Positions 125-21,557 of a DNA stretch of 23,206 nt are shown piece after piece. The first letter of the stretch is position 1, and each line of letters opens with the position of its first letter. The position numbers were made by a program, and so were the translations under genes. The stretch is from a virus. The notes below the pieces were generated by a model. It did not search any database, was not told the origin of the DNA, and saw only the letters and a program-made list of their open reading frames with translations. The stretch is taken from positions 1 through 23,206 of the IMG/VR virus record IMGVR_UViG_3300025407_000134; one strand, written 5' to 3'.

Positions 125-1540
125 TTACTTGAATCCTGCGAATTTTGACTTGTCGAACTTTGGTTTTGGTTTTCCTCTTTCATTATCTTCCTCACCAAAC
201 TTACTATTGTCGAATACAGACTTCATTGATGGTCCATCTGTAAGACCTTCTTGAGCGGATTGATCGACATCGTAGAGACGCATTTTGGAGCGATCAATCC
301 CAATGATAAACCTACGATTATTCCCAGGATCATTATAGCGATTCTTGAGTTGCTTAACCATGATCTGGCTGAGACTCTCAAGTTCTTCACTGGAGATGAG
401 TGCAAACATAAAATCAGCTGTGGCTGGGAGTCCAAAGGATTCTGATGTATCTTCCAGTCCCACGTCTGAGTTCGAATAGCCTCCTCGAGTTGTTTGAGTT
501 GCCGAGACGATAGGGACGTCGTACTCAACTGCCAACCCACGGAGCTCTTCTGCGATTGCTTTGACAAGGGTATAAGAATTGACGTTGGCTCCATGCTTAA
601 TCCTTGACGATAGACAAATATTTAGATAATCAATGTATATGATATCTGGTTCAAAGTTCCTCTTAATCTTTAACTCATTAAGAAGATGTCGGAAGTTAGC
701 GGATCCTGCACAAGCGGTAGGATATTCTTTTACAATAAGTTTGCCTTGAGTCTTTTCTTTTACCTTATTAATCTTAGCATCATATGTTTGCTTTGGAAGC
801 ATCTCAAGTTCATCAACAGCGACGTTGAGGAGATTAGCGTCGATACGTTCGGCGATCCTCTCCTCAGCCATCTCTAGTGTAATGTATAATACATTGAGAC
901 CTTTTGATAGGTTTGCTGCGGCACAGTGACACATGAATAACGATTTGCCGACACCTGTACCTGCGAGTGCAATATTGAGAGTTTTGTTTGGCAGTCCACC
1001 GTTGGTAATGACGTTGAAGTAGTCAAGATCGAATGGAATTCTCTTCTCTTTACGATGGTAGAACTCGTATCTCTCATCACTATCATCCAGAAAGTCATGA
1101 CCAATATGGGTATCAAAAGAGACGCCAAGAGCGTCAGTGAGGATTCCAGGAATACTTCCCTTGGAGATTGCTGCATTTTTCTCGTCCATGATTTTGATTG
1201 ACTGCATTATAGCGAGATATAATGCTTTATCCTGGCAGAATTTCTCTGTCTGGTCCAGAAGCCAATCCAGTTTAGTGTTAGAATCAGACTCAAGAGAAGA
1301 TAGAATCTCTCCACCTTCCTTGAATGCCTGATCGTTTAGTCCCTCTTTGTTAGACAGGTCTATTGCTAACGCTTCAACAGAAGGAAATGAGTTATACTTC
1401 TTAACATACTCGTCAATGAGGTCAAAGACCACACGCTCGGAATAATTCTGAAAGTAATCACTCTTAAGAAAGGGTATTACCTTTCTATTGTATTTATCGT
1501 TAAATAAAAGATTACTTAGAATTACACGTTCGATGCTCAT
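125..1540 (-). CDS. 41: Replicative DNA helicase, T4 gp41 / DnaB type
   Basis: This 471-aa protein is the hexameric 5'-3' helicase that unwinds the phage replication fork and works with a primase. The N-terminal part (about 1-140) matches the DnaB N-domain layout; the RecA-like motor follows, with a Walker A (GTGVGKS, about 194-200), a Walker B (IIYIDYLN, about 300-307) and the SATQTTRGG segment (about 346-354) typical of the DnaB H3 region. The length is close to the T4 gp41 norm. Its ATG overlaps the uvsX stop in an ATGA junction, so the two are translationally coupled and transcribed from the uvsX promoter. The C-terminal 30 residues are Lys/Phe-rich, end in repeated KF-K/S pairs and may be a partner-binding tail. 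Confidence 0.93.
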   Translation of the reverse strand: MSIERVILSNLLFNDKYNRKVIPFLKSDYFQNYSERVVFDLIDEYVKKYNSFPSVEALAIDLSNKEGLNDQAFKEGGEILSSLESDSNTKLDWLLDQTEKFCQDKALYLAIMQSIKIMDEKNAAISKGSIPGILTDALGVSFDTHIGHDFLDDSDERYEFYHRKEKRIPFDLDYFNVITNGGLPNKTLNIALAGTGVGKSLFMCHCAAANLSKGLNVLYITLEMAEERIAERIDANLLNVAVDELEMLPKQTYDAKINKVKEKTQGKLIVKEYPTACAGSANFRHLLNELKIKRNFEPDIIYIDYLNICLSSRIKHGANVNSYTLVKAIAEELRGLAVEYDVPIVSATQTTRGGYSNSDVGLEDTSESFGLPATADFMFALISSEELESLSQIMVKQLKNRYNDPGNNRRFIIGIDRSKMRLYDVDQSAQEGLTDGPSMKSVFDNSKFGEEDNERGKPKPKFDKSKFAGFK

Positions 1541-2598
1541 TGAACCTCCGCAGTTTCCTCATCATCATTATAAACTAAACTACCCTCTGTGTCAAGTGAA
1601 TATTTCTTCTTAATCCAATCAGAGAAGTCAGTTTCTTTAAGTAGAGTCAACCAAAATTCTTTACTGTCCACGATATCAGCTGCTCGATAGTTCTTTCCAG
1701 ATACCTCGCCTGTTTCCCTATCAACGACTGCGTACCAACCAACTTTTGGCTTAGCAACATAGCCTCCTTCAATGGCCAACTCAAGAAGACCACTCCAGCG
1801 ATTAATGCCACCCTCATAGCTAATGGTAATCGGTATCTTAGATTTTTCACGAACATAACGGGATTTCTCAACATTGATGACAAAATGGTACCCTTGTATC
1901 TCTCCATTGTCTTTATCCTGCTGTCTACCTAAAATCCAGATGTTATCAGCACCATAGTAAGAACCAGTTCCACCGCCCACAACAGCTTTAGGGAACATGC
2001 CGATTTCCATATAAGTGTGGTTAACTGCAACAAGTGGAATATCTTTCAATGTTAGATGTGGTGTAATCATTCTGAATAAAGACTTCAGCTGCTTTGCACG
2101 AGACATATCAGCAACTGATTTCTCGTTCAATGCATCCTCAACTTCTTTCTTTGAAGCAAGATTGCCGATAGAGTCAATAATGATAAGAACTTTCTCATCA
2201 CGAGTGATCTCTTTCAGTTGTTTCATCATATCAAACTTCAGTTCCTCAACATCAGTAATAGGCGTATGCACAACTGAATCAAGAGGGATCTTGAACTTGT
2301 TAAAATAAGACTGAGGCGTGCCAAACTCAGAATCATAAAACAATATAACGCCATCGGGATACTTCTTTAGATAAGCTGATGCTAACAGAAGAGCGAAGCC
2401 AGTTTTAAAATGCTTCGATGGTCCTGCTAACATTGTTAGACCAGGAGTAATACCTCCATCAATAGAACCTGCCAATGCTACATTAATCATTGGCACGGCT
2501 GTTTGAATCATATCTTTCTTAGTATATACTTTAGAATCAGTCAAAGTTGACGTCAAATCAATAGTGCTGTTCTTAATCAATTTCTCTTTCAACGACAT
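1537..2598 (-). CDS. uvsX: UvsX recombinase (RecA-like)
   Basis: This 353-aa protein is the phage RecA homologue that forms filaments on single-stranded DNA for strand exchange and recombination-dependent replication. A Walker A variant of the UvsX kind (GPSKHFKT, about 59-66) and a Walker B (VLIIID, about 137-142) are present, followed by the glycine-rich VVGGGTGSYYGAD segment that matches the DNA-binding loop region. The C-terminus is acidic (DDEETAEVQ), as in T4 UvsX, where it modulates DNA binding. A strong AGGAGG lies before the ATG and an early-type promoter sits directly upstream, inside the end of the 79-aa gene. The stop overlaps the helicase start. Confidence 0.96.
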   Translation of the reverse strand: MSLKEKLIKNSTIDLTSTLTDSKVYTKKDMIQTAVPMINVALAGSIDGGITPGLTMLAGPSKHFKTGFALLLASAYLKKYPDGVILFYDSEFGTPQSYFNKFKIPLDSVVHTPITDVEELKFDMMKQLKEITRDEKVLIIIDSIGNLASKKEVEDALNEKSVADMSRAKQLKSLFRMITPHLTLKDIPLVAVNHTYMEIGMFPKAVVGGGTGSYYGADNIWILGRQQDKDNGEIQGYHFVINVEKSRYVREKSKIPITISYEGGINRWSGLLELAIEGGYVAKPKVGWYAVVDRETGEVSGKNYRAADIVDSKEFWLTLLKETDFSDWIKKKYSLDTEGSLVYNDDEETAEVQ

Positions 2599-2621
2599 AC
2601 AAATACCTCCTAATTATATTC

Positions 2622-2650
2622 ATTATAAACTATTTCTGAACAGAAGTCAA
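2622..2650 (-). promoter_or_regulatory. Early promoter of uvsX
   Basis: Read on the minus strand this is TTGACT, a 17-base spacer, then TATAAT, a near-perfect sigma70-type promoter. The -35 box overlaps the stop codon of the upstream 79-aa gene and the -10 box lies 23 bases before the uvsX ATG. It allows uvsX and gp41 to be expressed separately from gp43. Confidence 0.88.
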
Positions 2651-2886
2651 GTGTTAATATAATCATCCATCTTTTTTATGAAGGCATTTATACTTTTAAC
2701 ACGAGCAGTTCCCTCCCATTTGATAATATCCATATCTGGGTTCTTTTTCAGATTATTCAGAAGAGGCATAATCATATCCCTAAGACCCTGCAGCTTCTGC
2801 TTAGTTTCCTGTGCCTTTAATATCTCGTCTTGTTTTAATTCGTCCTCCGAGGTAAACCCGAAGTCGAAGTTAATTTCGTCTGACAT
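2647..2886 (-). CDS. Conserved small protein between gp43 and uvsX
   Basis: This 79-aa acidic protein begins MSDEINFDFGFTSEDELKQ and continues with a helical, Lys/Leu-rich middle and a Trp near residue 57. From memory, short proteins with the same FDFGFT opening sit beside uvsX in T4-type cyanophages and pelagiphages, where they are called conserved hypothetical. It has a strong AAGGAG seven bases before its ATG and lies 9 bases after the gp43 stop, so it is in the gp43 transcript. Position and charge suggest an accessory to replication or recombination, but no catalytic motif is visible. Confidence 0.85.
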   Translation of the reverse strand: MSDEINFDFGFTSEDELKQDEILKAQETKQKLQGLRDMIMPLLNNLKKNPDMDIIKWEGTARVKSINAFIKKMDDYINT

Positions 2887-2895
2887 ATTTTCTCC

Positions 2896-5394
2896 TTATG
2901 AAAAGAAATCTTCCAGAGTAGCCTTTTGCTCTGTTTTCCATCCAATGATAGATGCAATAGATGTAACAGGATCTAAGAACGACTTAGTAAACTGCATCTC
3001 TCTATCAATATAATTATCGATGTTAAACTCTTCAGGAAGTGTGTCCGGAGCTCCAATAACACTATCACCGACAGGATTAGGCATCTTAAGATATGCGAAC
3101 CTAATCTTATCTCCATCAGTGATAGGCTGAATATTCTTAATGTTATGTTTCTTAATCATATCATTAAAGATAAGAGCAGCTTTAACGTGTATTGGTGTAC
3201 CTTTATCATACAATAATCCTTTTGTCTGAGTATATTTCTTCATATGCTTAATGCCACGAGGAAATGATACCTCTTCAAAAGGTAAAGTCATAAACTTATC
3301 ACGAAACTCCTCTACGAATTTAATAAGAGCAGTTTCATCTTCATTCATAATAATACCCAGAGCTTTCTTAATATTTTCACGACAAGCATGCGGAGTTGAA
3401 GAACGAACAGCCTCAATTCCCTGTAGTTTTAACTTAGGCTCTGAATACTGAACACCCTCGACATTCCAGGCATTCAGGATATACATTTTCTTACCACGCC
3501 AGATACCTTTGTTAGCGATAGTTTCACGCTTCATCTGCATTTTCTGCTGATAAGCATTCATATACTCTGCAAGCTCTTGATAGCATTTATCAATATAAGG
3601 CTGAATCTTATTTTCACAGAATTGATCAATTGCTTTAACAATAGTCTCATCGTCATCTGCTGGTAAATGTTCAACAAGAGCTTCCATAGTCACATAGATA
3701 GAATCTGTATCAGATGCAATCACATAATCAACACCATTAGTCTTGAGAATCTTATTCATATATTCATTCATCTTGCCCTCTATCCAACGAATGGACAGCT
3801 GACCAGACATAGTAATAGATTCTGCAAGATCAAAGTTAAACCAACGGAAATACTGATTACCCAAAGCACCATAAGCAGAGTTTAATTGTATTTTCTTTGC
3901 CATTTGCATGTTATGATAACGGGCGATTAGTTTTTCATCTTCAGAGTTCTTATTATTCTCATAACGCTGTTTAGCTTCAAGCATTAACTTCTTATACTTG
4001 GTTCTATCGTTATACATCATCTCCATAAGAGCAGGAAGAAATCCTTGCTTATCTTTAGTATACAATACACCATTAGCAGCAATGGCACAATCTTCCATAC
4101 CCCCCATATAATCACTATTTTTGAAATGATCGACTTTTTTCAACATATCATCGACTGAAGGGAAATTGTTAGGTCTCCAGAGAAATCTTGTTTCCGGAGA
4201 AATATTATACTGCATAATAAGATGGGGATATAGACTATTCAAGTCAAAAGAAACTACCCATTTAGAAAGACCGATCTTTGGCTCCTTAACATAACCACCA
4301 ACAAGAGCCTCTGTCATCTCTTGACGTCTGATCTTAGGAATAACAATGTTACGCTCTAAGAGATAGTTATGAATAATAATATCCCAAGGACGAACAGTTG
4401 TTAGAGTATCAGCATAGTTTACCTTGGCATCATAAGCCATAGCCATAACCTGCTCGATGAACTTCATCTTTTCATCAAGACGATCAACAAGAACAGTATC
4501 GTGAATATTATACTCGATAAACTTTTGAAAGTCTTGCTTATAAAGCTCTAACAGATTACCGTATTCAGAATAGTCAATCTTTTTCTCACCAAGCTCCACC
4601 TGACAGATATAATCGAGCTTATAAGATTCTTGGTTACCAAATGTGAACTTACGATATAGCTGATAATAATCCAGAGAAGCCAGACCTAATATCTCATATG
4701 TCTGGTTTGTCTTACCACGAAACTCAATAGACTTCTCGTGAATAATACCCCATGGAGATATTTTCTTGGCTTCTTTCTCATTAAATAATAACTTAATACG
4801 ATTGATCAGATAAGGAATATCGAAGAACTCAATATTCCATCCAGTTATAATATCAAGATCGAGTTTCTGCCAACAATCAAGAAACTGTAATACTAACTCA
4901 TGCTCATTTTTGCACTGGATATAATGAGTGTTATCGTCTCTGCTGCTATACTCACCACAACCGAAAACGTAATTACGGCCACGACAGCGAATAGTGATAG
5001 CCGTAAGAGGCTTATCAGCTCTCTGAATATCAGGGAAACCGTCATCAGCAGCACATTCAATATCCAGGATACCAACTTTGACCATCTTTGGATCATAATC
5101 AATATCTCCTCTATACTCATCGAAAACATAGAGATACTGAAAATGAGTTAGCCCATAGATCTCCATATTTGATACACCTTCATATCGTTCAAGGAAATCC
5201 TTGGCGTCATTCAGTGAATCAAATTCGAGTTTATCTACAGGCTTACCATCTATTGTTCTATATTTTCCGTTATCTTTTGGTATGAAAAGGTAAGGTTGAT
5301 AACTAATCTTATCTGATATTCTTAAACCTTTATCATATCCTCTTAAAAATATTTGATTACCACGCTTGCAAAAATCTGTATAAAATCTCGTCAT
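2896..5394 (-). CDS. 43: DNA polymerase, family B (T4 gp43 type)
   Basis: This 832-aa enzyme is the phage replicase with 3'-5' proofreading. The exonuclease motifs are visible: DIE (about 111-113), NIEFFD (about 187-192) and YNIHD (about 295-299). The polymerase motifs follow: A, DLNSLYP (384-390); B, K-x3-NSAYG (501-509); and C, DTDS (562-565). The C-terminus ends LEDFFS, a short hydrophobic tail like the sliding-clamp-binding end of T4 gp43. Every catalytic acid I looked for is present, so the enzyme should be active. It is slightly shorter than T4 gp43 (about 898 aa), as in cyanophage homologues. AGG lies before the ATG, and a promoter and leader hairpin sit in the 84-base gap upstream. 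Confidence 0.97.
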   Translation of the reverse strand: MTRFYTDFCKRGNQIFLRGYDKGLRISDKISYQPYLFIPKDNGKYRTIDGKPVDKLEFDSLNDAKDFLERYEGVSNMEIYGLTHFQYLYVFDEYRGDIDYDPKMVKVGILDIECAADDGFPDIQRADKPLTAITIRCRGRNYVFGCGEYSSRDDNTHYIQCKNEHELVLQFLDCWQKLDLDIITGWNIEFFDIPYLINRIKLLFNEKEAKKISPWGIIHEKSIEFRGKTNQTYEILGLASLDYYQLYRKFTFGNQESYKLDYICQVELGEKKIDYSEYGNLLELYKQDFQKFIEYNIHDTVLVDRLDEKMKFIEQVMAMAYDAKVNYADTLTTVRPWDIIIHNYLLERNIVIPKIRRQEMTEALVGGYVKEPKIGLSKWVVSFDLNSLYPHLIMQYNISPETRFLWRPNNFPSVDDMLKKVDHFKNSDYMGGMEDCAIAANGVLYTKDKQGFLPALMEMMYNDRTKYKKLMLEAKQRYENNKNSEDEKLIARYHNMQMAKKIQLNSAYGALGNQYFRWFNFDLAESITMSGQLSIRWIEGKMNEYMNKILKTNGVDYVIASDTDSIYVTMEALVEHLPADDDETIVKAIDQFCENKIQPYIDKCYQELAEYMNAYQQKMQMKRETIANKGIWRGKKMYILNAWNVEGVQYSEPKLKLQGIEAVRSSTPHACRENIKKALGIIMNEDETALIKFVEEFRDKFMTLPFEEVSFPRGIKHMKKYTQTKGLLYDKGTPIHVKAALIFNDMIKKHNIKNIQPITDGDKIRFAYLKMPNPVGDSVIGAPDTLPEEFNIDNYIDREMQFTKSFLDPVTSIASIIGWKTEQKATLEDFFS

Positions 5395-7023: not shown

Positions 7024-7189
7024 TTATTTTCTCCAACATGTTGTTTAGTTCTTCAACGTCTACTTCGTCAAGTAGTCCTAACGCGAACATACGATTCGTT
7101 ATGCTCTCGTTATAACCTTCATTATATATCATATGGTTATAAAAGTCAAGTCTTTTTTCAAATTTTTTACCACAAAAAGGACAAAACAT
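7013..7189 (-). CDS. Small zinc-finger-like protein, 58 aa
   Basis: An ATG at 7189 with a good AAGGA seven bases upstream opens a 58-codon frame starting MFCPFCGKKFEKRL and ending LEKINGK. The CPFCGKKF start followed by FYNHM gives a C-x2-C plus His arrangement typical of small phage zinc fingers; a second His ligand is not clear. The C-terminal half is an acidic helix (LLDEVDVEELNNMLEKI). It overlaps the next gene by 11 bases. A very good promoter lies inside its 5' third, so either the promoter is internal or the true start is the Met at residue 20. Confidence 0.55.
   Translation of the reverse strand: MFCPFCGKKFEKRLDFYNHMIYNEGYNESITNRMFALGLLDEVDVEELNNMLEKINGK
7121..7149 (-). promoter_or_regulatory. 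Early promoter within the zinc-finger ORF
   Basis: On the minus strand this is TTGACT, 17 bases, TATAAT, the same boxes and spacing as the uvsX promoter. Transcription would begin near 7114 and carry the 133-aa and 166-aa genes. It overlaps codons 14-22 of the 58-aa ORF. Confidence 0.72.
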
Positions 7190-7200
7190 GTTATTTCCTT

Positions 7201-7208
7201 AATAAATA
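7201..7208 (+). promoter_or_regulatory. Probable late promoter of the HNH gene
   Basis: AATAAATA preceded by TT and followed by G fits the relaxed late box (NATAAATA) of T4-type cyanophages. It lies 60 bases before the HNH ATG and shares its 11-base core with the box at 19373-19380. Confidence 0.5.
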
Positions 7209-7267
7209 GAATGTGGTTCACGAGTTCCGACGCTCCAACCACTCTATATCTATCAAGGAGATACAGC

Positions 7268-7954
7268 ATGTCTATTTATAAACGAACATCTAAGAACTAT
7301 CGTAAGATCTGGGAACAAGCAAATAACCAAAAGATACCTAAAGGGTATCACGTTCACCATATCGACGGCAATCACGAAAACAATCATCCTTCTAATCTGA
7401 CAGTCTTAACAGCCATAGAGCATTACAGAATCCATAGAGAACAAGGAGACTCTGGTGCTTGTTGGGCGATGATAGTGACAGGTCATATATCAGTATCGCC
7501 AGAAGAAAGAGCAGAAGTAGCAAGAATTAATGGATTGAAAAGAGCGGCGGAAAAGTCTTTATGGTCTCAATCAGATATAGGAAAAAAGACTCTTTCTGAA
7601 AATACAAGAAAAATGAATTTAGAAAGATCTGCTAACGGAACGCATTTTTCTCAGACAAAAGAGTTTAAAGGACTAATATCAAATTTTCAAAATAAAAGAA
7701 TAGAATCTGGAGAACATTTATTCGTATGCGATAACCCAGTATACAAGCAGATAGAACAAGGAAAAAATATATTCTGCACAGAGCAAAATCCATCAACCGT
7801 TGCTTCTAAAAACGGAACGCATTTATGGATCAGCGATAATCCATCTTATAAACAAAAATTAGAAGTTTTTGAATGTGAACTTTGTGGAAGATCTATTCAA
7901 AGCAAAGGTAACTATACTCAGCACCTAAGAGCTTGCAAGAAAAAGGGGGCATGA
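7268..7954 (+). CDS. HNH homing-type endonuclease with repeat region and zinc finger
   Basis: This 228-aa protein has three visible parts. The HNH nuclease is at about 28-56 (HVHHIDGNHENNHPSNL, then EHYRIH), with the His-His-Asp and Asn residues of the fold. The middle (123-196) has four degenerate repeats of the form G-T/E/K-H/N, about six residues, then often NP (for example NGTHLWISDNPSYKQ), resembling NUMOD3-type DNA-binding repeats. The end has a C2HC zinc finger (CELC with His219 and Cys223). The chosen ATG has AAGGAG seven bases upstream; the longer upstream frame has no ribosome site. Such genes are usually selfish homing elements cutting a specific phage site. It is the only plus-strand gene between two minus blocks and sits next to hsp20-pmoC. 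Confidence 0.88.
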   Translation: MSIYKRTSKNYRKIWEQANNQKIPKGYHVHHIDGNHENNHPSNLTVLTAIEHYRIHREQGDSGACWAMIVTGHISVSPEERAEVARINGLKRAAEKSLWSQSDIGKKTLSENTRKMNLERSANGTHFSQTKEFKGLISNFQNKRIESGEHLFVCDNPVYKQIEQGKNIFCTEQNPSTVASKNGTHLWISDNPSYKQKLEVFECELCGRSIQSKGNYTQHLRACKKKGA

Positions 7955-13401: not shown

Positions 13402-13493
13402 ACTTACAACGCTAACATTAACATCTTTTAATGTTCTGGGGGCTTTACTTTTGACAAAATATAGGGTATAATATATTGTAAGATTGAGAAAGG
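13402..13493 (+). repeat. Promoter-region repeat, copy 1
   Basis: These 92 bases match 21466-21557 with only about eight differences, mostly in the spacer between the -35 and -10 boxes. The repeat holds an inverted repeat (AACATTAA, six bases, TTAATGTT at 13414-13435), a GGGGG run, the early promoter and the start of the transcript through the ribosome site. Confidence 0.88.
13444..13472 (+). promoter_or_regulatory. Early promoter, rightward, at 13444
   Basis: TTTACT, 17 bases, TATAAT. The sequence after the -10 box (ATATTGTAAGATTGAGAAAG) is shared with the promoters at 17566 and 21508. It lies 30 bases before the 75-aa gene. Confidence 0.9.
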
Positions 13494-13742: not shown

Positions 13743-13771
13743 TTGACTTTTTGAAAAAGTTAAGGTATAAT
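13743..13771 (+). promoter_or_regulatory. Early promoter at 13743
   Basis: TTGACT, 17 bases, TATAAT, followed by the shared GTAAGATTGA leader. It lies directly after the 75-aa gene and drives the four genes at 13801-14883. Confidence 0.9.
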
Positions 13772-13800
13772 ATAGTGTAAGATTGAAACGGAGATAAAAT

Positions 13801-14918: not shown

Positions 14919-14951
14919 ACAAATACAGTTGTGATACTTTCGGAGAAAACC

Positions 14952-15386
14952 ATGACTAGCCGTAATCTGAAGTCCATTATTTTTCGTGGGGAAGTAATAG
15001 AAGATTATTTCGTTGACGATCTTGGTCTAATCTACAGCACAAAACGAGGGTCGCTTGCTTTATTGTCTGTTCAAAGAGGAGACGATTGGAACCCATACCC
15101 AAAAGTTACTATTAAAGTAGATGGCGCAAGGAAAACAGTTTCTGTTCACCGTTTAGTATGTGAAACTTTTCACAAAAAGCCACTACCAAATATATTGACA
15201 GAAAAAGAGTGGAATAGTATTGATAAAGTTATTCGCGATAAATTACTAGAACATATTCAACATGCTGATCGTTATCAGGTCAACCATATTGATCACGATC
15301 GTAATAATTTTCATCCTTCTAATCTTGAGTGGGTTACCGCATCCGAGAATCAGCAGAAGTTTCAAGAACACCGTAAAGCTGCCTAA
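14952..15386 (+). CDS. HNH endonuclease with a NUMOD4-like N-terminus, 144 aa
   Basis: The N-terminal region (VIEDYFVDDLGLIYSTKRG) and the VSVHRLVCETF block resemble the NUMOD4 module that precedes HNH domains. The HNH core is at about 108-128 (YQVNHIDHDRNNFHPSNLEW), with the His, Asp and Asn residues expected. It is probably a homing-type DNA cutter. The ATG has GGAGA seven bases upstream; an upstream GTG in frame has none. It differs in length, domain set and HNH type from the HNH protein at 7268, so they are independent acquisitions. A long-stem terminator follows. Confidence 0.88.
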   Translation: MTSRNLKSIIFRGEVIEDYFVDDLGLIYSTKRGSLALLSVQRGDDWNPYPKVTIKVDGARKTVSVHRLVCETFHKKPLPNILTEKEWNSIDKVIRDKLLEHIQHADRYQVNHIDHDRNNFHPSNLEWVTASENQQKFQEHRKAA

Positions 15387-15452: not shown

Positions 15453-15480
15453 TCTTTCTTGTGAAAAAAGAGCTTTACTT
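15453..15480 (+). repeat. Shared upstream element, copy 1
   Basis: These 28 bases are identical but for one base to 17545-17572. The element includes an A6 tract just upstream of the -35 box, resembling an UP element. It marks the helicase-nuclease and the methyltransferase units and is not seen at other early promoters here. Confidence 0.85.
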
Positions 15481-15502
15481 TCGTGGTATTAGGGGGTATA
15501 AT
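15474..15502 (+). promoter_or_regulatory. Early promoter of the helicase-nuclease unit
   Basis: TTTACT, 17 bases, TATAAT, with the shared ATATTGTAAG leader. It lies 49 bases before the helicase start. Confidence 0.88.
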
Positions 15503-15550
15503 ATATTGTAAGGTTGAAAAAGATACCTTAACTATATTATGGAGATAAAA

Positions 15551-16951
15551 GTGGAAAAGGTACTTCACCAGCATCAATTTGAAGCAATACAAGCCATCCT
15601 TAATATTAAAGGAGATAAAGGTAGAATTGTTATTCCTACTGGTGGCGGAAAGACTTTAGTAGAAGCATTAACATTAAGAGACCGCCTTAATAATAAGCGT
15701 GGCGGAAAGATTCATCTTGTTCTTGCTCCTCGTATTGTTCTTCTCAATCAATTGATGAAGAACTATCGTAATGAAATCGGACAAGACTATATTGCTCTTG
15801 CATTTCATTCAGGTCGTTATGAACCTGATTACACCAAGATTGTCTGGGATGAGAAATCCACAACTAGCATTAATGTTGTTGGTGAAGAATTCGAACGTGC
15901 TAAGCGTATGAAGAAAGACTTAGTAGTGTTTTCTACTTATTGCTCAGCGTTTAAATTGATAGATTACAACTTTCATACTCTTATTGCAGATGAATCACAA
16001 TATTGTGTCGCGGAAGGTTTCTTTGACACAGTTCGTGATTTGTCTTCAAAGTTAAAGCTGTTCTTTACAGCTACAGAGAAACATACATTTCATGACACTG
16101 GCCGTGGTCTTAATAACATTGACGTATATGGTGACCTTCTTTATCAAGTTTCTCCTTTGACGTTAGCTGAACGTGGTATTATTGTTCTTCCAAAATTACA
16201 CGTTATGACTGCTACTTCTAAAGATACAGTTAAGACTGTTGTCGACGAAGTAAAGAATATTGCTTTGGCTCAGTCTAAATTGACTAACGAAACAGGTATT
16301 CCGGTCAATAAGATCCTGTTTGCTATGGAAGGCACAGCCGACGTAGAGACTATCGCTAAGAAATGGGCGACTATCGTAACTGACATGCCAGGTTATCGTG
16401 TATTTACTATTACATCTAAAGGTGGCGCTAAGATTAACGGTAGAAATTATGGAAACAATAGGGCTGAATGGGAGAAAGAGCTTCGTGAAAGCGATAAAGC
16501 ATTAGTGTTTCATTATGATATCCTTGCGGAAGGCATCGATATAGACGGAATTACTGGTGTCGCTATACTTCGTAATATGAAACAAGCAAAATTGTTGCAG
16601 ACTATAGGTCGTGCTGTTAGAATCTATAAGGCTAATCCTTCTCTTAAGAAGAATTGCTGGGTTTCAGTTACCAATATCAATGGAGACGAAGAGAACCAAC
16701 GATTCATCATGGATATACTAATGCAGATACGTGCTGGTGGATTTGACATTGGTCGTGAAATGATGACTTTTACTGGTGAAGATGGATCTGGTATTAAAGA
16801 AGATGACGGTATACCAGATGCATATGGTAACAATGGTGCTTCTCTGGCTCAGTTTCTTCTTGATAATATTATGCATCAAGTAGAGAGATCAGAATTAGCA
16901 GAAACAATTTCTCTGATGGACATCAATCAACGTGAAGAGGCAGTATTCTAA
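15551..16951 (+). CDS. SF2 DNA helicase/translocase, restriction-enzyme type
   Basis: This 466-aa protein is a two-domain SF2 motor. Visible motifs are a Q-like LHQHQFEA (5-12), Walker A PTGGGKT (29-35), motif Ia APRIVLLNQL, motif II DESQ (147-150), motif III TAT (about 173-175), motif V EGIDID (about 327-332) and motif VI QTIGRAVR (350-357). The layout matches the ResIII-type translocase of restriction enzymes; T4 UvsW is a more distant alternative. The start is taken as GTG 15551, because GGAGA lies just upstream; the in-frame ATG at 15539 contains that signal and has none of its own. The stop overlaps the nuclease start as TAATG, so motor and nuclease are made together. Confidence 0.87.
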   Translation: MEKVLHQHQFEAIQAILNIKGDKGRIVIPTGGGKTLVEALTLRDRLNNKRGGKIHLVLAPRIVLLNQLMKNYRNEIGQDYIALAFHSGRYEPDYTKIVWDEKSTTSINVVGEEFERAKRMKKDLVVFSTYCSAFKLIDYNFHTLIADESQYCVAEGFFDTVRDLSSKLKLFFTATEKHTFHDTGRGLNNIDVYGDLLYQVSPLTLAERGIIVLPKLHVMTATSKDTVKTVVDEVKNIALAQSKLTNETGIPVNKILFAMEGTADVETIAKKWATIVTDMPGYRVFTITSKGGAKINGRNYGNNRAEWEKELRESDKALVFHYDILAEGIDIDGITGVAILRNMKQAKLLQTIGRAVRIYKANPSLKKNCWVSVTNINGDEENQRFIMDILMQIRAGGFDIGREMMTFTGEDGSGIKEDDGIPDAYGNNGASLAQFLLDNIMHQVERSELAETISLMDINQREEAVF

Positions 16952-17526
16952 TGTTAACTCTTAATCATAGATTCTCTGGCCAGTGTTATTCTATAGACAA
17001 ACTTCTGAGTAACACTCAGAAGCTATCAACTTTCATGCGTAAATTAGAATCACAAGCGACAGAATATCCAGATAGATGGGATAGAGATACATATGTTGGT
17101 GATGGATTCGAGTGTCTTGTTGAAGCTCTTATTAAGATGTCTCCTATTGATAAAAGAATTAACATAATTAACTATCAACCACAGCTTGGTCCTGATTATG
17201 GTATTGATGGTATAGGTTATGGTCATGACGGTCAAGCTCATACTATTCAGTGTAAGTATCGTTCCAATACTATTTCAGTTCTTACAGCTAACAAAGATCA
17301 TATATCTAACTTTGTCTCTCAGAGTGCTATGAAGTATAACATAAGCAAGGATTATGGACATATGACTATATTCACTACTGCTAAGACTCTTCATGAAGAG
17401 ATTAATAGAGAGATGTATGCAGAAAAAGTAAGAACATTAGGATATAATGAGATATCTAAGATGATTGATGGAAATAGTGGGTTCTGGTCTCAATTCAGAG
17501 ATGCGATGATGTACGCTCGAAGCTAA
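16951..17526 (+). CDS. Mrr-like restriction nuclease (PD-(D/E)XK)
   Basis: This 191-aa protein has the elements of an Mrr-type nuclease: a helix with Glu (GDGFECLVEAL, Glu54), then GIDGIG with Asp86, a 13-residue strand pair, and QCKYR with Gln100 and Lys102. Asp-x13-Q-x-K is the Mrr form of the active site. The preceding Tyr-x-Pro-x-Leu-Gly-Pro-Asp-Tyr region is consistent. The gene is coupled to the helicase by a TAATG overlap, implying one complex in which the motor drives and the nuclease cuts. In single-chain type ISP enzymes a similar nuclease is fused to the helicase; here they are separate. The target may be host DNA or a rival phage. Confidence 0.75.
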   Translation: MLTLNHRFSGQCYSIDKLLSNTQKLSTFMRKLESQATEYPDRWDRDTYVGDGFECLVEALIKMSPIDKRINIINYQPQLGPDYGIDGIGYGHDGQAHTIQCKYRSNTISVLTANKDHISNFVSQSAMKYNISKDYGHMTIFTTAKTLHEEINREMYAEKVRTLGYNEISKMIDGNSGFWSQFRDAMMYARS

Positions 17527-17544
17527 GTCTTTGAATTTATTACC

Positions 17545-17572
17545 TCTTTCTTATGAAAAAAGAGCTTTACTT
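17545..17572 (+). repeat. Shared upstream element, copy 2
   Basis: This is the second copy of the 28-base element at 15453-15480, differing at one base, again ending in the -35 box. It ties the methyltransferase unit to the helicase-nuclease unit. Confidence 0.85.
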
Positions 17573-17594
17573 CTTGTCAATCTTAGGGTATAAT
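17566..17594 (+). promoter_or_regulatory. Early promoter of the methyltransferase unit
   Basis: TTTACT, 17 bases, TATAAT, followed by the shared transcript start and ribosome site, 30 bases before the ATG at 17624. Confidence 0.9.
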
Positions 17595-17623
17595 ATATTG
17601 TAAGATTGAGAAAGGGATTAAAG

Positions 17624-18694
17624 ATGTCTGCCGCTTCTTTTGATACATATGAGAAAAAGAAAGAGCTCGCAAATATAGTCTTTGGTAAAGATTTTGTTCG
17701 TAACGAACTTAATCCTCATTCTGTTCACACACCTTTCAGTTTATGTGAAGAAGTACTTTCTAAAATTGATTTGAATAATAAATCAATTTGTGTAGTATAT
17801 AATTTTGAATTTGTATGGGTGCTTAAACATCTATATAATATTGACGTCAGCGAAGTAGTTATTTGGACAGACGAATTCTCTGAATTTCATAACGGGAAAG
17901 CCAGTAAGATTGGTTGTATCTATTTGTGGGGAGAATTAGAAGATATGAAATTTGACGTTACTGTAGGTAATCCTCCTTTTAGTAATAATAAGGATATGTT
18001 ATATCCTAGATTCTTTCAGCTTTCTTTAGAGAATTCTAAAGAAGTTGCTATGATTATGCCAGAGAACTTAAATGTAAACTGGCGTTATTTTATCAACCAC
18101 AATAAACTAGTTAAGACTCATTCTAGAGAAATGATGGACGTAACATCACATTTTGGAGTAGGCATATCTTCTATGCATTGTGTGTTTGCTTCTAGGGATA
18201 TAAACAACAAAGTTGAACCTATTAAAGACAAATTCGAAGGATATAATGTTCTTTATCCGGAGAAGAAAAGACTAAAATGTATCAAGGGAGGATTTCCAAC
18301 TACATCAGGAATAGTAACAGAAAATGGTGACATTGAAGTAATAACCAAAGTTCATAAAACTGGACCTGTGATAGAGAAATATGACAGAAAACAAGTTAAT
18401 TCTGTTAGAAAATTAGAACGTCTTATATATAAAGGAAACAAACCATGGTTGTGTATAGTAAATCATACCCCATCTAGAGGTAAGTTTAACACATACATAT
18501 GTGAATCAAAGAATAAGATGTGGTCTGGGTTTGTGTTTGCTATAGAATGTAACAGTAAGAAAGAAGCAGAAGAAATGTCAAAGTGGCTTACTTCTGATGC
18601 TATAACAAACGAGAATATAAGATTGCTAGAGACAAACAAAACATATGCTACTTCTAAAACTTTGATAGAGAAGCTTCCGGATTTCAGAGATTAA
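17624..18694 (+). CDS. Adenine methyltransferase-like protein with NPPF but no SAM motif
   Basis: This 356-aa protein has the catalytic motif IV NPPF (116-119), preceded by FDVTVG and followed by RFFQLSLENSKEVAMIMPEN, exactly as in N6-adenine methyltransferases of the restriction type. An N-terminal VHTPFSLCEEVLSKI (about 34-48) resembles motif X. The SAM-binding motif I is not recognisable: where DPACGxG is expected there is ICVVYNFEFVWVLKHL. The C-terminal half (about 200-356) is probably the target-recognition region. The next gene begins one base after the stop and supplies motif I. AAAGGGA precedes the ATG. It could alternatively be an inactive DNA-recognition homologue. Confidence 0.7.
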   Translation: MSAASFDTYEKKKELANIVFGKDFVRNELNPHSVHTPFSLCEEVLSKIDLNNKSICVVYNFEFVWVLKHLYNIDVSEVVIWTDEFSEFHNGKASKIGCIYLWGELEDMKFDVTVGNPPFSNNKDMLYPRFFQLSLENSKEVAMIMPENLNVNWRYFINHNKLVKTHSREMMDVTSHFGVGISSMHCVFASRDINNKVEPIKDKFEGYNVLYPEKKRLKCIKGGFPTTSGIVTENGDIEVITKVHKTGPVIEKYDRKQVNSVRKLERLIYKGNKPWLCIVNHTPSRGKFNTYICESKNKMWSGFVFAIECNSKKEAEEMSKWLTSDAITNENIRLLETNKTYATSKTLIEKLPDFRD

Positions 18695-18695
18695 T

Positions 18696-19142
18696 ATGTG
18701 GAATAAGATAGCTGAACTAACCAACCAACACGGATATATGTCTGGCGTTGATCGTATGTCAGATCGTGTGAAGAAGACTGGTGAAGTATTCACACCGACT
18801 GATCTGGTCATTGAGATCCTACAAAAGATGGATATCGATACATTCGCTCCTGGCAAGACTGTTATTGATCCTGCCTGTGGAGACGGTCAGTTCTTAGTGC
18901 CAGTGAAATATCTTAAGATGCTACATTTCAATATGACGGAACAAGATGCATTGAAGGATATCTATGGTGTTGATATTATGAGAGACAACGTAGATATGTG
19001 TAAGAAGAGATTAGGTGGTGGTAATATTGTTATGGGAAATACGTTGGATCCTAATACAAGATTAGACGGACAAACAGATGAAGAATATAATAAGATGCGT
19101 CAATGGTTTGGTTCTACAGATGTCACGAGCTTCTTTAGTTAA
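18696..19142 (+). CDS. Methyltransferase SAM-binding half, 148 aa
   Basis: This protein holds the front part of a type I-like adenine methyltransferase: motif X TGEVFTP (28-34), motif I DPACGDGQF (58-66), motif II GVDI (91-94) and a motif III-like NIVMGNTLDP (110-119). It ends at residue 148 before any NPP[YF] motif, so it lacks the catalytic loop. From memory, stand-alone proteins of this length exist in other T4-type phages, so this may be a normal form rather than a truncation. Its direct neighbour upstream has the missing NPPF. The last 23 bases overlap the next gene. Confidence 0.78.
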   Translation: MWNKIAELTNQHGYMSGVDRMSDRVKKTGEVFTPTDLVIEILQKMDIDTFAPGKTVIDPACGDGQFLVPVKYLKMLHFNMTEQDALKDIYGVDIMRDNVDMCKKRLGGGNIVMGNTLDPNTRLDGQTDEEYNKMRQWFGSTDVTSFFS

Positions 19143-19374
19143 TATCTGCCTAGCATTATTAATAACGAAAGCACAGTTCGTTGATTCTCGCTGGCACTCA
19201 TTATCTGTGCCAGGAGGACTACCACAAGCGCCAACATATTCCTGGCAAGAAGGCACAAACGCCGGAGCCACAAGAGGATGGCAAAGTAGTCCTCCGTCTG
19301 GCGGTAATAGCGGAGGAGGATCAGTTGGCGGTGGTAGTTCGTTAAGCAAAGACTTTGATGCTATGGGTAATTAA
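19120..19374 (+). CDS. Small secreted Gly/Ser-rich protein, 84 aa
   Basis: The chosen start gives MSRASLVNICLALLITKAQF, a plausible signal peptide with a hydrophobic core and possible cleavage after TKA. The mature part has PGGLPQAPTYSWQEGTNAG, then a Gly/Ser-rich low-complexity stretch (GGNSGGGSVGGGSS) and a short charged end. The reading frame overlaps the methyltransferase end by 23 bases and its ribosome site is poor, so the start is uncertain; an earlier in-frame ATG lies at 19078. Its position before late genes suggests a role in the envelope or virion, but no family is recognised. Confidence 0.55.
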   Translation: MSRASLVNICLALLITKAQFVDSRWHSLSVPGGLPQAPTYSWQEGTNAGATRGWQSSPPSGGNSGGGSVGGGSSLSKDFDAMGN

Positions 19375-19380: not shown

Positions 19381-19405
19381 GTTCTGCAGTGCGATGTAGC
19401 CCGAA

Positions 19406-19434
19406 GGGGAGTGATGGGAATCACTCCTCTTTTT
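19406..19434 (+). terminator. Terminator before the 158-aa gene
   Basis: GGAGTGAT and ATCACTCC pair perfectly around GGGA, with two further weaker pairs, followed by five Ts. It would end transcription of the methyltransferase unit. Confidence 0.82.
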
Positions 19435-21465: not shown

Positions 21466-21557
21466 ACTTACAACACCAACATTAACATCTTTTAATGTTC
21501 TGGGGGCTTTACTTTTGTGAATTTATAGGGTATAATATATTGTAAGATTGAGAAAGG
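21466..21557 (+). repeat. Promoter-region repeat, copy 2
   Basis: This is the partner of 13402-13493, 8064 bases away, with the inverted repeat AACATTAA/TTAATGTT at 21478-21499. The two copies differ at only about eight of 92 positions. Confidence 0.88.
21508..21536 (+). promoter_or_regulatory. Early promoter at 21508
   Basis: TTTACT, 17 bases, TATAAT, in the duplicated 92-base region, 29 bases before the 93-aa gene. Confidence 0.9.

Follow-up and report, generated by a model that had tools for sequence, protein, structure and literature searches.

Type I (HsdR/M/S) and type III restriction-modification systems are multi-subunit, ATP-dependent and methylate adenine at N6; their nuclease and motor share one chain, and recognition resides in HsdS or Mod. 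Type ISP enzymes such as LlaGI and LlaBIII carry an Mrr-family nuclease, a superfamily 2 (SF2) translocase and an N6-adenine methyltransferase with a recognition region on a single polypeptide (PMC4666363, PMC4872093), and their nuclease is activated by motor collision (PMC4666363). In the bacterial system CglI (R.CglI and H.CglI), ATP-dependent restriction involves a nuclease and an SF2 helicase-like ATPase that are separate proteins (PMC5737866), and EcoP1I of phage P1 is a type III precedent in a phage (PMC2962900). Here we describe a four-gene module at positions 15551-19142 (plus strand) of a 23,206-base IMG/VR virus record, hereafter the window, which encodes an SF2 helicase-like translocase, an Mrr-family nuclease and two methyltransferase proteins, L and S. 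Its sequence makes it likely that the module is a phage-borne ATP-dependent restriction-modification system with separate subunits, a split methyltransferase and an exchangeable specificity and restriction cassette.

The window derives from a T4-like phage, with a gp43-type DNA polymerase, UvsX and a gp41-type helicase at 125-5394 on the minus strand. All four open reading frames (ORFs) of the module are present, in the order helicase, nuclease, L, S (Table 1). The end of the helicase gene shares TAATG (16949-16953) with the start of the nuclease gene, and S begins one base past the L stop, so that the layout of adjacent genes given in the original prediction was borne out in full. The same prediction distributed type ISP parts over individual proteins, and this also held: Pfam finds Mrr_cat_2, ResIII, Helicase_C, N6_Mtase and Eco57I both across the module and in a plasmid type ISP enzyme analyzed as a control, the module set equalling the plasmid set minus the coupler and the C-terminal domain.

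Table 1. Coordinates of the module genes and of regulatory elements in the window
Feature	Position	Strand	Length	Remarks
SF2 helicase-like translocase	15551..16951	+	466-470 amino acids	start GTG 15551 or ATG 15539
Mrr-family PD-(D/E)XK nuclease	16951..17526	+	191 amino acids	
Methyltransferase L (MTase-L)	17624..18694	+		M.TaqI-like fold, NPPF and C-terminal target-recognition region; ORF from 17606
Methyltransferase S (MTase-S)	18696..19142	+		S-adenosylmethionine-binding half without NPPF
Promoter-like element TTTACT-N17-TATAATATATTGTAAG	15474..15512	+		5' of the helicase-nuclease pair
Promoter-like element, identical copy	17566..17604	+		5' of MTase-L
Promoter-like element, three more copies	13444-13482, 13743-13781, 21508-21546	+		
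Terminator-like hairpin	19403..19432	+		13-pair stem, T-rich tail; downstream of module; pattern scan only

The two proteins of the predicted restriction pair retain their catalytic motifs. The helicase matches ResIII (1.6e-12) and Helicase_C (4.5e-5) and carries PTGGGKT (15635-15655), ADESQ (15986-16000), FTATE (16064-16078) and QTIGRAVR (16598-16621), and a GGAG ribosome site accompanies GTG 15551. In the PDB, a profile built from 23 helicase sequences scored best with LlaGI (7.6e-30) and LlaBIII (1.4e-29), well above T4 UvsW (9.6e-14), in line with the earlier expectation that profiles would place this protein with type ISP and not with UvsW; searched alone, the window helicase matched only LlaGI and LlaBIII. 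The nuclease matches Mrr_cat_2 (5e-7) and phrog_7683 (4e-38), with motifs GDGFE (17098-17112), GPDYGIDG (17188-17211) and QCKYR (17248-17262). An alignment of 25 relatives keeps E54, G84, D86, Q100 and K102, an Mrr-type PD-(D/E)XK site in which D86-x13-Q100-x-K102 is invariant. Searches with a nuclease alignment found no match among PDB sequences and no relative in the bacterial genomes scanned by a pattern search sensitive to close relatives only, and at that sensitivity the nuclease family therefore looks phage-specific.

The methyltransferase motifs are divided between two proteins. S matches N6_Mtase (2.4e-8) and phrog_21201 (1.5e-16) and carries motif X (EVFTP, 18783-18797), the S-adenosylmethionine (SAM) motif I (DPACGDGQF, 18867-18893) and motif II (GVDIMRDN, 18966-18989), with no NPPF. 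L matches Eco57I at 9.4e-5, a little under the curated Pfam cut-off, and has NPPF at 17966-17980, while the place of motif I is taken by a degenerate VVYNFEF (17792-17812); many relatives of the window-type L have hhxFNhEF there. The set of motif X, motif I and NPPF that characterizes gamma-class N6-adenine methyltransferases is thus complete only in S and L combined. An AlphaFold2 model of L (mean pLDDT 69, a moderate value) matched M.TaqI (1aqi, 2e-7) over its full length, recognition domain included, and a tblastn search of L in phages gave no match. L accordingly resembles M.TaqI in its catalytic and recognition domains but differs in lacking SAM motif I, which the second gene probably supplies.

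Comparison across phages revealed three kinds of L: those with a degenerate N-terminal half as in the window, those in which this half is better preserved, and those that lack it. Many marine-phage L proteins are of the last kind, beginning at NPPF with the SAM half absent and S always adjacent, so S must supply that half. In Aeromonas phage Aeh1 and its relatives, L and S form one chain in permuted order, modeled as a confident fold (pTM 0.80); Foldseek returned only weak matches to each half of this fused model, as expected for a permuted chain. This Aeh1p090-type fusion resembles the permuted adenine methylases that Iyer et al. 2021 noted in jumbo phages (PMC7824862), and the part of that survey available to us describes neither the split pair nor its nuclease and helicase partners. 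In three further loci (L019, L020, L035), a single-chain methyltransferase of canonical order stands beside the Mrr-helicase pair in place of L and S. Based on the NPPF-start proteins, the permuted chain and these single-chain replacements, S and L are most simply read as two halves of one enzyme that would bind one another.

The genes are conserved as a set. A search from the nuclease alone retrieved 37 IMG/VR contigs; the helicase was present on 35, the other two being cut at the contig end, and most also carry L and S. Once named cyanophages and the loci reached from S were added, the full set comprised 49 nuclease hits in 21 clusters (80% identity), with the helicase beside the nuclease in all 21 and an N6 methyltransferase nearby in 19. 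Co-occurrence in other phages had been proposed as a check. Six clusters were reached via S and are biased toward it; without them the methyltransferase count is 13 of 15. Five gene orders occur: helicase-Mrr-L-S (the window), Mrr-helicase-L-S, helicase-L-Mrr-S (Bellamy), S-Mrr-L-helicase (ACG-2014f) and Mrr-L-helicase-S (S-CAM7). That the cluster persists despite this reshuffling is strong evidence for a joint function. The original prediction would have been undermined by parts found routinely apart, and here the outcome was divided: no cluster has the nuclease without the helicase, but methyltransferase pairs without this nuclease do occur.

The recognition part of L is far more variable than the rest of the module. 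In pairwise comparisons of the cyanophage relatives, the nuclease averages 80% identity, S 75%, the helicase 64% and the N-terminal half of L 57-64%, whereas most of the C-terminal recognition part of L drops to 24-31%. Variability of this kind marks specificity change in type I and type II restriction systems, and we read the drop as the signature of changing DNA specificity. Four loci (L094, L088, L112, L117) carry two to five L-type genes each with a single S; in L094 and L117, the L copies are 80-91% identical through NPPY plus 30 residues and 20-24% identical beyond.

A sister phage contig, L046, shows an exchange. Parts of the window at 8.1-12.1 kb and 19.4-23.1 kb are syntenic with it at 74-85% DNA identity, and it keeps S (90% protein identity), whereas the window nuclease, helicase and L give way to another L and to a 694-amino-acid protein that joins GIY-YIG (T5orf172) to an SF2 helicase. 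Homology restarts at the S start codon, give or take a few bases. Fused GIY-YIG-helicase chains of about 700 amino acids recur; at many other S loci a protein of 700-790 amino acids with helicase-like motifs lies directly 5' of L, and at others a single helicase-L chain of 1140-1243 amino acids precedes S. Some of these long proteins have weak or no Pfam matches, and motifs are then part of the basis for calling them helicases. Block replacement and helicase-L fusion together indicate that L travels with motor and nuclease, with S as the constant partner. In a series of marine phages (L049-L071), an NPPF-start L and S come after a protein of roughly 375 amino acids that matched no Pfam, PDB or PADLOC family; some of these proteins show a KGDF...SLKN pattern that looks PD-(D/E)XK-like by eye, and the set is possibly a motor-free restriction-modification cassette.

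These observations suggest the following mechanism. S, as the SAM half, and L, contributing NPPF and recognition, would form one sequence-specific N6-adenine methyltransferase that marks adenines on the phage's own DNA at a motif determined by L. On unmarked DNA, whether the host chromosome or a rival phage, site-bound L-S would recruit both the Mrr-family nuclease and the SF2 translocase, whose ATP-driven movement would lead to cleavage as in type ISP. S would stay constant, while L, nuclease and helicase would form a swappable cassette setting specificity and cutting mode. The parts, their catalytic motifs, the conserved clustering, the cassette exchange and the hypervariability of the recognition region are read directly from sequence; the L-S complex, the action of nuclease and helicase with it, ATP-dependent cutting and the biological target we infer. 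The phage probably uses the module either to degrade host DNA that lacks the modification, which would yield nucleotides and aid takeover, or to shut out rival phages, and the evidence favors neither.

The module resembles LlaGI and LlaBIII in its Mrr-family nuclease, SF2 translocase and N6-adenine methyltransferase with a recognition region, but is built from four polypeptides rather than one, splits the methyltransferase and is phage-borne. It is not a type ISP enzyme as that class is defined, being neither single-chain nor equipped with the coupler or C-terminal domain, although it would work like one if our proposal holds. With CglI it shares, by description, a nuclease and motor that are separate proteins; unlike CglI, it is carried by a phage, and we know of no split methyltransferase of the S-L kind in that system. 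It would also be multi-subunit, ATP-dependent and N6-adenine-methylating like type I and type III systems, but its recognition lies in L and its motor and nuclease on separate chains. In a literature search with most subscription journals outside its scope, we found no description of the four-gene split, the S-L methyltransferase or the exchangeable cassette.

Several observations weigh against a restriction-modification system of this design. The window L keeps its degenerate N-terminal half, which the model folds as part of a complete Rossmann domain and which complicates any docking of S. Three contigs (two clusters) carry nuclease and helicase with no methyltransferase found within 12-36 kb. 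The type ISP coupler PF22240 and C-terminal specificity domain PF18135 were absent from all four proteins at E up to 1, although both were detected in the plasmid control. The module genes lie in two transcription units. Finally, as a control on the helicase, cyanophage UvsW-like helicases also matched LlaGI and LlaBIII first in the PDB, more weakly; this weakened the PDB test, and we therefore added a tree. There the cyanophage UvsW-like helicases nest among cyanophage module helicases. Assignment of the helicase to the type ISP kind from sequence thus has moderate support given this control, and its affinity by itself does not prove a restriction role.

The transcription units bear on an alternative in which the genes are unlinked neighbors: S and L would shield phage DNA from host restriction, replacing T4 Dam, while helicase and nuclease would break host DNA independently of methylation. 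TTTACT-N17-TATAATATATTGTAAG occurs in five exact copies in the window against none expected from shuffled sequences, all on the plus strand, and is similar in form to T4 early promoters. Searches of L046 allowing up to three mismatches found none. One complete copy fills part of the 97-base gap preceding ATG 17624, the likely L start because TTG 17606 sits on the promoter. We considered a single operon for all four genes and rejected it on account of this second copy 5' of L. With helicase and L each preceded by a copy, the genes for restriction and those for modification seem to form one unit each, under the same kind of promoter; we speculate that separate promoters could allow modification to be controlled apart from restriction.

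The separation by two promoters fits unlinked neighbors, as do S-L pairs that occur without this nuclease, usually with a different nuclease or helicase. One such pair, in Klebsiella phage KpV477 (L005, 4731-6664), lies between primase and mrh/modA-type early genes, a position that we take to be that of dam in T4; its L protein starts with a GIY-YIG-like stretch, by eye. This alternative nonetheless seems unlikely to us, as nuclease and helicase stay by the methyltransferase through all five gene orders, helicases fuse naturally to L, and nuclease, helicase and L were swapped as one block in L046.

Less probable still is a recombination or repair module in which a UvsW-like helicase would act with an archaeal Hjc-like PD-(D/E)XK resolvase beside an unrelated methyltransferase. 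The best PHROG of the helicase is phrog_16 (phage DNA helicases), the nesting of cyanophage UvsW-like helicases noted above would suit such a module, and Iyer et al. 2021 (PMC7824862) propose that REase-fold and T5orf172 proteins of jumbo phages resolve Holliday junctions. In our tree, however, the window helicase groups with module helicases (97/92), with T4 UvsW outside module and type ISP helicases; the relevant fork is incompletely supported (92/88) and long branches are present. Together with the far lower profile score of T4 UvsW, this led us to reject the helicase as a T4 UvsW orthologue. Bellamy and its relatives also carry a distinct UvsW-like gene beside the module, and the linked methyltransferase has a hypervariable recognition region. 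The cyanophage UvsW-like helicases (L042 5721-6944, L004 6870-8060 and relatives) fall inside the module-helicase clade, not with T4 UvsW, and may share descent with a restriction motor. Two phage helicases do group with T4 UvsW, on long branches (L081 14534-15991, L109 3104-4594); the L081 phage also carries a helicase-L fusion and the L109 phage an S gene.

Decay of a fused restriction enzyme by mutation, which the degenerate motif I of L and the abutting L and S might suggest, is largely refuted and we reject it, since helicase, nuclease and S retain intact catalytic motifs that divergent relatives share, the split is common to many divergent phages, and the reading frames are intact with ribosome sites at two starts. 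The description of the module as a dismantled enzyme in the original prediction found no support, as we saw no sign of descent from a fused form and did not detect the type ISP coupler and C-terminal specificity domain.

Around the module, genes for HNH homing-type endonucleases lie at 14931-15386, immediately 5' of it, and at 7133-7954. A small ORF (19078-19374) overlaps the end of S and encodes a Gly/Ser-rich tail, with no family matches. Megablast of the entire window against phages gave no match, and an Rfam search of the window found none.

Beyond this phage, we regard it as an evenly balanced question whether the module exemplifies a widespread family of restriction-modification systems with which lytic phages destroy host or competitor DNA, built from a constant S and one or several interchangeable L proteins with a nuclease-motor set for each L. 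The sets in such a family, about which we are equally divided, would be Mrr plus translocase, GIY-YIG plus translocase, and a nuclease-like protein without a motor. The split methyltransferase reading would explain many cyanophage hypothetical genes, including ACG-2014f gp051-054, Bellamy 85-88 and S-CAM7 054-057. If the proposed system is real, sharing one SAM subunit among several recognition subunits would give nature a simple means of altering methylation specificity, and T4-like cyanophages and huge phages would carry an ATP-dependent system that is conserved, recombines and has a specificity code open to testing. Restriction-modification, usually seen as a bacterial defense, would then serve phages as a weapon against the DNA of their hosts and against rivals.

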